Shown here: positions 4,614 through 6,726 of the stretch, in pieces
How positions within the stretch are numbered: position 1 is the stretch's first letter
Layout of the letters: the number at the start of each line of letters is the position of its first letter
From: Patescibacteria group bacterium
Lineage (GTDB): Bacteria > Patescibacteriota > Minisyncoccia > RBG-13-40-8-A
Length of the DNA: 37,097 nucleotides
NCBI GenBank assembly: GCA_018897295.1
Contig: JAHILA010000013.1
Span: 1-37,097, forward strand
Reading direction: 5' to 3'
The notes under the pieces: model-generated
What the model was told of the DNA's origin: nothing
What the model saw: only the letters and a program-made list of their open reading frames with translations
Databases searched by the model: none
Position numbers and translations under genes: made by a program

Positions 4614-4642
4614 ACTATAACAGGATATTATTTCCCTGTCAA
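4614..4642 (-). promoter_or_regulatory. promoter of the small membrane gene
   Basis: TTGACA (4642-4637), 17-bp spacer, TATAGT (4619-4614). It overlaps the 3' end of the FAD/Fe-S gene. The predicted start near 4607 gives a short leader that holds the AGGAGG site. Confidence 0.65.
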
Positions 4643-6481
4643 ATCATTGCGATAATTCTCATTGAACTCTTTTAGTTTTGCGCCAACAATAGTTTCGCAG
4701 GTTTTGGTGCAGTTTCCGCAAAGAACACACTTTTTGATTTGCCCCTCTATGGCAGGGATTTCCGGATCACCTTCTTTAACTTCCAAAACTCTGTACCTAA
4801 TTAAATTTTTGAATTGTTTTGGCCCTGTCTCGCCTTTTTTCGCAGTAATCCAAGCAGGACATTTATTCTGGCAATAAGCACATTCCATACAAGACCATTC
4901 TTCTAGCCCCAGCGGTTTCATTGGAATTTTTATATTATCATAAATCTTTGCCTTGCTGAACATTGTTTCAGGATTAAGAATATCATCAGAGTCAAAGATT
5001 TTCTTGATTTCTTTAAGATATTTTAGTATCTTTCTACCCCATTCTTTTTTCAAATACATACTTCTACATCTACCTCCGCCATGCTCTGTGGCAATTGTAC
5101 CGTCATATTTAAAGACCGCAGCATAAACTTTATCCGCAATTTTCTTGATTATTTTCACGTGTTTCTTGCTTGTTGCTTCAATTACCGGATCAATATGAAT
5201 CGTGCCTGTGCCTGCGTGCCCGTATAAAGTGACCTGGATATTCAAATCCTTAAATATCTGCCTCAAATCTTTTATTAAATCAGGAAGGTCTTTTATTCTT
5301 ACTCCGACATCATCAATAGAAACCAGTGGCTTGGTAGTCGGAGAAAATTTTGCAGTCAAAGGTAATAAGCATTTTCTTAATTCCCAGATTTTTGCCATTT
5401 TTTCCGCATCCTTAATAACCTCGCCGACCAGTTTAAAATTCTTTAATGAATTTTCAAACTCCTTTAATGTTGCTTCTATTTTTTCGTCAAACTGTACAAT
5501 AAACATCGCTTCTGCTTGTTTAGAAAGTCCCAACATCGGAAAACAGCTTGAAGCAAGCTCCAGCGAAACCTTATCAACTAACTCAACCCCAGAACAACCA
5601 AGTCGCTTAACTTCCTTGATAAAATTATCAATCTGATATAAGTCAGCCAGAAACACTGCCCAGGAAACAGGCCCGCCTGCCAACGAGGCAGGCTTTTCTA
5701 TAACTTTTAATTTAATTTCCGTAAAAATACCCAAAGTGCCGATGCTCCCCATCATCAGATGTGCAATCAATTCATTAGTATCAGCATATTTATCAAAAGC
5801 AAAAATATTATAAGTGGAAGCATTCTGCACATCAGCCTTGCGGTTGATGATTGCCATTGATTTTTTGTCATTTAAAATCTTTTTCCGCAGAGCTTCCAGT
5901 TTTTCTTTGAATTTTTCAACTCCTTGTCCGGTTTCAGTATTAACAATATCGCCGTCAGCATCAATAAATTCAATTGCCAGCATAAAATCATCAAGAGTTC
6001 CATATTTTACCGCGCCTCCGCCGCAGGCCTTAGTTGCTACATTGCCCCCAATCATACAAGCTCTTGAGGAAGCCGGCACAGGCGGCAAAAATAATCCCTT
6101 TTCAGCAAGCTTTGCTTGTAAATCATCATAAATTACTGCGGGCTGTGTACGAACAAAAGCGACTTGCCCTGAGCTTGTCGAAGGGGGAATAATTTCCAAT
6201 ATTTTGTCGAAATATCTTGTAAAATCAAGAATAATTCCCGGGCCAACTGCTGCACCTGCAACGGATGTTCCTGCTGTTCTGCAAGTAATGCCGATTTTGT
6301 TTTCTTTGGCGAATTTAATTGTCTTTTGTATATCCTGTTTTGTTTTTGGCAAAACAATCAGCTCTGGAACAAATTTATAAATGCTCGCATCGGTCGCATA
6401 AACCTCACGCCAATATCTTTGCGTCAAAATATCGCCCTCAATTTGTTTTCTAAATTGTTCAATTTTTTCTTTTGATAACAT
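4628..6481 (-). CDS. GlcD-like FAD oxidoreductase with two Fe-S motifs
   Basis: This 617-residue protein is a flavoprotein dehydrogenase for a 2-hydroxyacid such as D-lactate, glycolate or 2-hydroxyglutarate. The FAD-binding PCMH domain (about 35-225) shows TCRTAGTSVAGAAVGPGIIL and GGNVATKACGGGAVKYG. A GlcD-type FAD-oxidase C domain follows, with LYGHAGTGTIHIDP and IATEHGGGRCR. The C-terminus holds two CxxCxxCxxxC sets (C531-C541 and C585-C595) that could each ligate a 4Fe-4S cluster. The CCG domains that follow such clusters in longer relatives are absent, so electrons must leave to a separate partner. Two palindromic elements lie in frame. A -10 box 7 nt before ATG suggests a leaderless start. 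Confidence 0.9.
   Translation of the reverse strand: MLSKEKIEQFRKQIEGDILTQRYWREVYATDASIYKFVPELIVLPKTKQDIQKTIKFAKENKIGITCRTAGTSVAGAAVGPGIILDFTRYFDKILEIIPPSTSSGQVAFVRTQPAVIYDDLQAKLAEKGLFLPPVPASSRACMIGGNVATKACGGGAVKYGTLDDFMLAIEFIDADGDIVNTETGQGVEKFKEKLEALRKKILNDKKSMAIINRKADVQNASTYNIFAFDKYADTNELIAHLMMGSIGTLGIFTEIKLKVIEKPASLAGGPVSWAVFLADLYQIDNFIKEVKRLGCSGVELVDKVSLELASSCFPMLGLSKQAEAMFIVQFDEKIEATLKEFENSLKNFKLVGEVIKDAEKMAKIWELRKCLLPLTAKFSPTTKPLVSIDDVGVRIKDLPDLIKDLRQIFKDLNIQVTLYGHAGTGTIHIDPVIEATSKKHVKIIKKIADKVYAAVFKYDGTIATEHGGGRCRSMYLKKEWGRKILKYLKEIKKIFDSDDILNPETMFSKAKIYDNIKIPMKPLGLEEWSCMECAYCQNKCPAWITAKKGETGPKQFKNLIRYRVLEVKEGDPEIPAIEGQIKKCVLCGNCTKTCETIVGAKLKEFNENYRNDLTGK
5671..5693. repeat. palindromic element in the FAD/Fe-S gene
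   Basis: GCCTGCC (5675-5681), loop AACGA, GGCAGGC (5687-5693). On the coding strand it supplies ASLAGGP between EKP and VSWAVF, a loop in the FAD-oxidase C domain. Confidence 0.7.
6164..6186. repeat. 23-nt element, CTTGCCC family, in the FAD/Fe-S gene
   Basis: It begins CTTGCCCTGAGC and ends CGAAGGG. On the coding strand it reads PSTSSGQ, placed between two strands of the PCMH domain. A related 23-nt copy lies in the opposite orientation relative to its gene at 14155-14177. Confidence 0.75.
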
Positions 6482-6488
6482 ATAGTTA

Positions 6489-6494
6489 ATTATA
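6489..6494 (-). promoter_or_regulatory. -10 box of the FAD/Fe-S gene
   Basis: TATAAT lies 7 nt before the ATG at 6481 and no Shine-Dalgarno site is present, which predicts a leaderless transcript. No good -35 is seen. It could act independently of the upstream structured RNA promoter. Confidence 0.45.
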
Positions 6495-6507
6495 TCATAA
6501 ATGTATC

Positions 6508-6691
6508 AAAAAAGAGCGAACATCGCACGTATGTTTTCACAGAGCGATAGTGAAAACAAATATTAAAGTGGAAGACGCTCCTCTTATCTCTCCTCTGATT
6601 TGTCATTCAGAAGCAGATTTGAAACTGACAAAAAGCAACCACTATAATTGCGACATTCGCTCATTTCTGGCTCCTATTACCAAATACGAGC
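6508..6691 (-). ncRNA. candidate structured RNA, class not recognised
   Basis: The 234-bp gap between the FAD/Fe-S and PAP2 genes has no credible ORF but folds well on the minus strand. P1 pairs 6662-6649 with 6527-6514 (14 pairs, two of them G-U). P2 pairs 6648-6639 with 6571-6562 (one mismatch). P3 pairs 6632-6626 with 6605-6599. P4 pairs 6558-6550 with 6540-6532 around a 9-nt loop. Six U residues (6513-6508) follow P1 directly. A TTGACT-17-TATAAT promoter predicts a start near 6691, giving about 184 nt. The FAD/Fe-S ATG is 27 nt beyond the U-tract. It is either a free small RNA or a riboswitch-like leader. GAGCGA of P1 can also pair with UCGCUC in the P4 loop, so the terminator could be opened by a switch. 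Confidence 0.55.
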
Positions 6692-6697
6692 ATATTT

Positions 6698-6726
6698 ATT
6701 ATATAAAATCGATTTTCAAAAGTCAA
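6698..6726 (-). promoter_or_regulatory. promoter of the structured RNA
   Basis: TTGACT (6726-6721), 17-bp spacer, TATAAT (6703-6698). It overlaps the stop codon of the PAP2 gene and fires towards the FAD/Fe-S gene. Confidence 0.65.

Follow-up and report, generated by a model that had tools for sequence, protein, structure and literature searches.

Promoter, ends and terminator of the locus

The window analysed here, a stretch of 37,097 nucleotides, is contig C13 of a Patescibacteria genome assembled into 611 kb and 27 contigs (G000; 96.75% complete). On its minus strand we identified a putative gene for a structured RNA, flanked by a PAP2 phosphatase gene and by a gene encoding a 617-aa FAD-linked oxidase/4Fe-4S protein (4628..6481, minus strand), the downstream neighbour, which lies outside the RNA gene. 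The candidate promoter (6698..6726, minus strand), which lies partly within the 3' end of PAP2, is composed of a -35 box TTGACT at 6726-6721, a 17-nt spacer and a -10 box TATAAT at 6703-6698. It matches at 11 of 12 positions, while weaker promoter-like sites are expected by chance at 3.6 per kb.

The two ends of the RNA pair with each other in the helix P1, whose 5' strand GAGCGAAUGUCGC (6650..6662, minus strand) is supported by covariation and whose 3' strand, GCGAUGUUCGCUC plus six U residues (6508..6526, minus strand), resembles an intrinsic terminator formed by the closing stem. Positions 6662-6650 pair with 6526-6514 over 13 bp, or 14 with the next A-U, including two G-U pairs, and the stem runs directly into the six U residues at 6513-6508; in doing so, P1 closes a domain of ~155 nt by pairing both its ends. 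The first-pass annotation had described this promoter, the 14-bp pairing of the ends with its U-run, and the helices P2 and P4, all of which we find where it placed them. It also put the start codon of the FAD/Fe-S gene 27 nt downstream; the ATG is at 6481, 26 nt past the U-run.

The sequence 6726-6508 folds more stably than all 200 dinucleotide shuffles (z -4.15), and the likely transcript, 6691-6508, has a folding energy of -64.4 kcal/mol in comparison with -42.0 +/- 3.9 in shuffles (z -5.73). The plus strand folds as well (z -3.9), as expected from the inverted repeats. It also carries an antisense sigma-70-like match across the RNA gene at 6619-6648 (TTGAAA-18-TATAAT, 11 of 12 positions), which could be due to chance. 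Downstream of the terminator, the FAD/Fe-S gene has a candidate extended -10, TGATATAAT (6489..6497, minus strand), a weak site in an AT-rich region; it lies so close to the ATG (window 6479-6497) that the FAD mRNA may be leaderless.

Relatives and conserved structure

When related genomes were searched at the DNA level, a single clear homologue emerged, in genome G005 (L009/L021; Patescibacteria bacterium). It is ~71% identical over a stretch that starts exactly at the -35 box and ends shortly after the terminator. Past L009, the plain DNA search returned chance matches, one of them (L012) within a coding region. L022, in Candidatus Portnoybacteria RBG_13_40_8, was reached by a protein search that used the FAD gene as query; here the matching RNA is one gene further upstream. 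A covariance model built from these three sequences (R1; window, L021 and L022) then recovered two copies blind, L031 in G004 (7.7e-11) and L029 in G002 (9.8e-9). In total, relatives were found in five of the six genomes of the window's Patescibacteria family, and the RNA is single copy in each genome. In the sixth, G003, the assembly breaks at the locus: its contig ends within PEGA, the gene next to the RNA in G004, so the lack of a match there need not mean absence.

When a five-sequence model (R2) was run on 384 genomes from the class and a sample of 380 from the phylum, the only matches outside the family were chance ones, with the scans scoring only eight candidates per genome so that distant relatives outside the family may be missed. 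Weak matches in G037 and G359 were judged to be chance, as neither has a paired P1 and a U-run in an intergenic setting. In G006, which belongs to another family of the same order, the PEGA relative is flanked by a different gene and the RNA is missing from that site. Within the genomes scanned here, the RNA appears restricted to one Patescibacteria family.

All five copies are preceded by TTGACN and a -10-like hexamer (10-11 of 12 positions matched), and all five retain P1b and the U-run, which by sequence provides the gene with a conserved promoter and terminator of its own, as a stand-alone noncoding RNA should have. About the inferred transcript start there is a 5' hairpin, GCUCGUAUUUGGUAAUAGGAGC (6670..6691, minus strand), that is retained in L021; L022 and L031 have other hairpins instead and in L029 none is evident. 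The relatives also fold strongly, with z scores of -5.2 (L021), -8.0 (L022), -6.8 (L029) and -9.1 (L031).

Covariation was assessed in two alignments, both of five sequences only. In the untouched MAFFT alignment (A4), P1 and P3 are paired in 96% of the cells and six pairs are changed on both sides, a level reached by none of 500 shuffles; when the partner is slid by 1-3 columns, pairing drops to 32-50%. In a second alignment (A8), to which P2 and two crossing helices were added, 13 of 35 pairs have changes on both sides (0 of 500 shuffles) and slid versions collapse, but as this alignment was tuned by hand, by removing or adding a few bases, inserting Ns and shortening two P4s, its counts lean towards structure. 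Because of these adjustments, we base on A4 the claim that, in sequence comparison, P1 and P3 covary across the copies.

P2 is formed by AGUGGUUGC (6635..6643, minus strand) and GCGUCUUCCACU (6567..6578, minus strand) and is well supported by the fold and by comparison: its inner part is paired in 100% of cases and two pairs are changed on both sides. Above it, the apical hairpin of the minimum-energy fold, taken as P3 in the first-pass annotation, turned out not to be the conserved one. The comparison favours P3 between UUUGUCA (6626..6632, minus strand) and UGACAAA (6599..6605, minus strand), pairing 6632-6626 with 6605-6599, where four of the seven pairs are changed on both sides, together with a pseudoknot. 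This pseudoknot, PK1, probably joins UCUG in the P3 loop (6614..6617, minus strand) to the downstream CAGA (6594..6597, minus strand): two of its four pairs are changed on both sides and the same register is found in four of the five copies. On energy alone the signal is weak (combined p 0.007), being strongest in the window and L029, and the best PK1 duplex of the window is in a partly different register. A second crossing helix is tentatively proposed between CUUCU, also in the P3 loop (6609..6613, minus strand), and AGAGG (6584-6580, minus strand), which covary with a C-G/U-A exchange in L021 and L029. As each of the two crosses the other as well as P3, PK1 and CUUCU/AGAGG may be alternative states.

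The last element, P4, is a hairpin with a stem of 8-9 bp, GUUUUCAC-UAUCGCUCU-GUGAAAAC (6533..6557, minus strand). Every copy has a hairpin at this position, with sequence and length varying and the loop kept only in L021; P4 is not conserved in sequence. No ORF common to the RNA copies was found among the five compared, leaving a covarying conserved structure without a conserved reading frame. Within the L022 RNA, GGAG followed by AUG opens a 28-codon ORF (L022:616-707) that is absent from the other copies.

A search of 4227 Rfam families gave no match at the RNA locus, and sub-threshold matches there (RUF21, plastid clpP, mir-248 and NRON) were far below gathering scores and were dismissed. 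With the blind recovery of relatives and the covariation of P1, P2 and P3, which 0 of 500 shuffles reach, this upholds the earlier proposal of a new structured RNA. What is real is a new RNA family within a known kind, the stand-alone structured noncoding RNA.

Neighbouring genes and competing explanations

The first-pass annotation also suggested a riboswitch ahead of the FAD/Fe-S gene. As a cis-regulatory leader, riboswitch or attenuator, the RNA would have P1 opened by a ligand or factor, its 5' strand would pair with the P4 loop, and the terminator would be lost. The RNA is near the FAD gene in four of the five genomes, and P1 with its U-run terminator stands just upstream of that gene in the window, L021 and L029. 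The duplication on which the exchange depends, GAGCG twice and CGCUC twice, is indeed there in the window, though the relatives lack it: the CGCUC of the P4 loop occurs only in the window and L021 and is missing in L022, L029 and L031, leaving three of the five copies without the required sequence and the family without a conserved alternative pairing by which the terminator could be formed or disrupted. The gene order argues in the same direction. G004 (99% complete) keeps the promoter, the RNA and the U-run, whereas no FAD homologue is found in its genome at E 1e-10 and the gene that follows, PEGA, is convergent rather than co-oriented; in L022, the RNA is separated from the FAD gene by a gene of 127 aa that has a promoter candidate (TTGACA-17-TATTTT) of its own. 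A position as the leader of a regulated gene is hence not kept across all or even most of the genomes. In the window, L021 and L029, TATAAT boxes between the terminator and the FAD gene also count against a leader, but alone they are weak evidence in this AT-rich region. On the upstream side the neighbours vary among PAP2, a PfpI-like protein, MTA phosphorylase and a 182-aa protein, the PfpI-like and MTA phosphorylase labels being given by eye from translations. Judged from these comparisons, a riboswitch or other leader for the FAD gene is unlikely.

A short intergenic gene with its own promoter and terminator could also encode a small regulatory RNA that base-pairs with mRNAs, and the pyrimidine-rich CUUCU loop and purine-rich AAGAGG segment would suit such a role. 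However, covariation between these two segments suggests that they pair internally, and there is no long conserved unpaired stretch, making this reading quite unlikely. If it were instead a polymerase-binding RNA of a divergent 6S type, it would agree in being stand-alone and ~180 nt in size with its ends paired in a long closing stem, and no 6S RNA was found over the RF00013 cut-off in any of the six family genomes, an absence that is weak evidence as just 4 of 14 control genomes pass. The locus itself has no RF00013 covariance-model match and no other Rfam similarity, and where 6S RNA is a long rod with one large open bubble, the core here is a pseudoknotted set of several helices; we consider a 6S-type RNA very unlikely. 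The near-perfect terminal inverted repeats, with an A-tract and a T-tract outside them in L022, L029 and L031, could also recall a miniature inverted-repeat element with P1 as its terminal repeats, or a retron-like a1/a2 RNA. This explanation is largely refuted by the single copy in the genome, the conserved external promoter, the compensatory changes inside and the flanking genes scanned, which include no reverse transcriptase or transposase, and we give it hardly any weight.

Proposed role and comparison with known RNAs

We favour, with a probability of about 0.68, a stand-alone and probably trans-acting structured noncoding RNA gene on the minus strand that represents a new family. Transcription would start near 6691 from the gene's own promoter and end at 6508, giving an RNA of ~180-190 nt. 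The 3' end would pair back to the 5' part in P1 and the U-run would release the polymerase, the closing stem doubling as the terminator. The predicted core consists of P1, then P2 leading into P3 with its loop-to-downstream pseudoknot, and the variable hairpin P4. Having its own start and stop, a conserved core and changing neighbours, and being kept without the downstream gene, the RNA most likely acts in trans as a stable molecule, probably bound by protein; P1, with its unusually constant sequence, and the pseudoknot domain probably form the contact surfaces. As the gene is retained through the loss of its neighbours in a genome of just 0.6 Mb, its function may well be a required one, and metatranscriptomes can be searched for it with the covariance model. 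A bolder proposal, which we hold to be improbable, is that the RNA, present in every assembled genome of the family, is a new functional class, either a core ribonucleoprotein or a regulator of polymerase or ribosome where no 6S or SRP RNA is found.

A literature search on noncoding RNA in Patescibacteria and Portnoybacteria returned essentially nothing among the papers covered, and at the curated gathering cut-offs Rfam recognises in G000, scanned nearly whole, only rRNA, tRNA, RNase P RNA, tmRNA and a ribosomal protein L10 leader. Apart from the L10 leader (G000:C7, L072:16776-16893, minus strand; 55 bits, above the cut-off), no cis-regulatory RNA is recognised in this genome. SRP RNA was rejected as the identity of the locus, which has no RF00169 or other Rfam match and no resemblance to it. 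RF00169 matched in none of the six family genomes in comparison with 13 of 14 control genomes, and a motif search of G000 revealed no Ffh/FtsY-type P-loop ORF; the family may lack the signal recognition particle.

Like tmRNA and RNase P RNA, the RNA is predicted to be stand-alone and structured, with pseudoknots and paired ends. Both identities were rejected, as the two are separate genes in the window's genome, with tmRNA at G000:C18:41640-42001 (and elsewhere from the locus in all six family genomes) and a class A RNase P RNA on contig C25. With transcription-terminating riboswitches and attenuators the RNA shares an intergenic stem and U-run upstream of a gene in most copies, but it is kept without the downstream gene, the downstream genes change and the switching complement is not conserved. 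OLE, GOLLD and ROOL are far larger than this RNA. From the orphan structured RNAs raiA, OLE, GOLLD and ROOL (PMC12286853, PMC8632094) it differs in matching no Rfam family and in being found here in one Patescibacteria family only, and it resembles them in having no assigned function, an intergenic position and a complex conserved fold.
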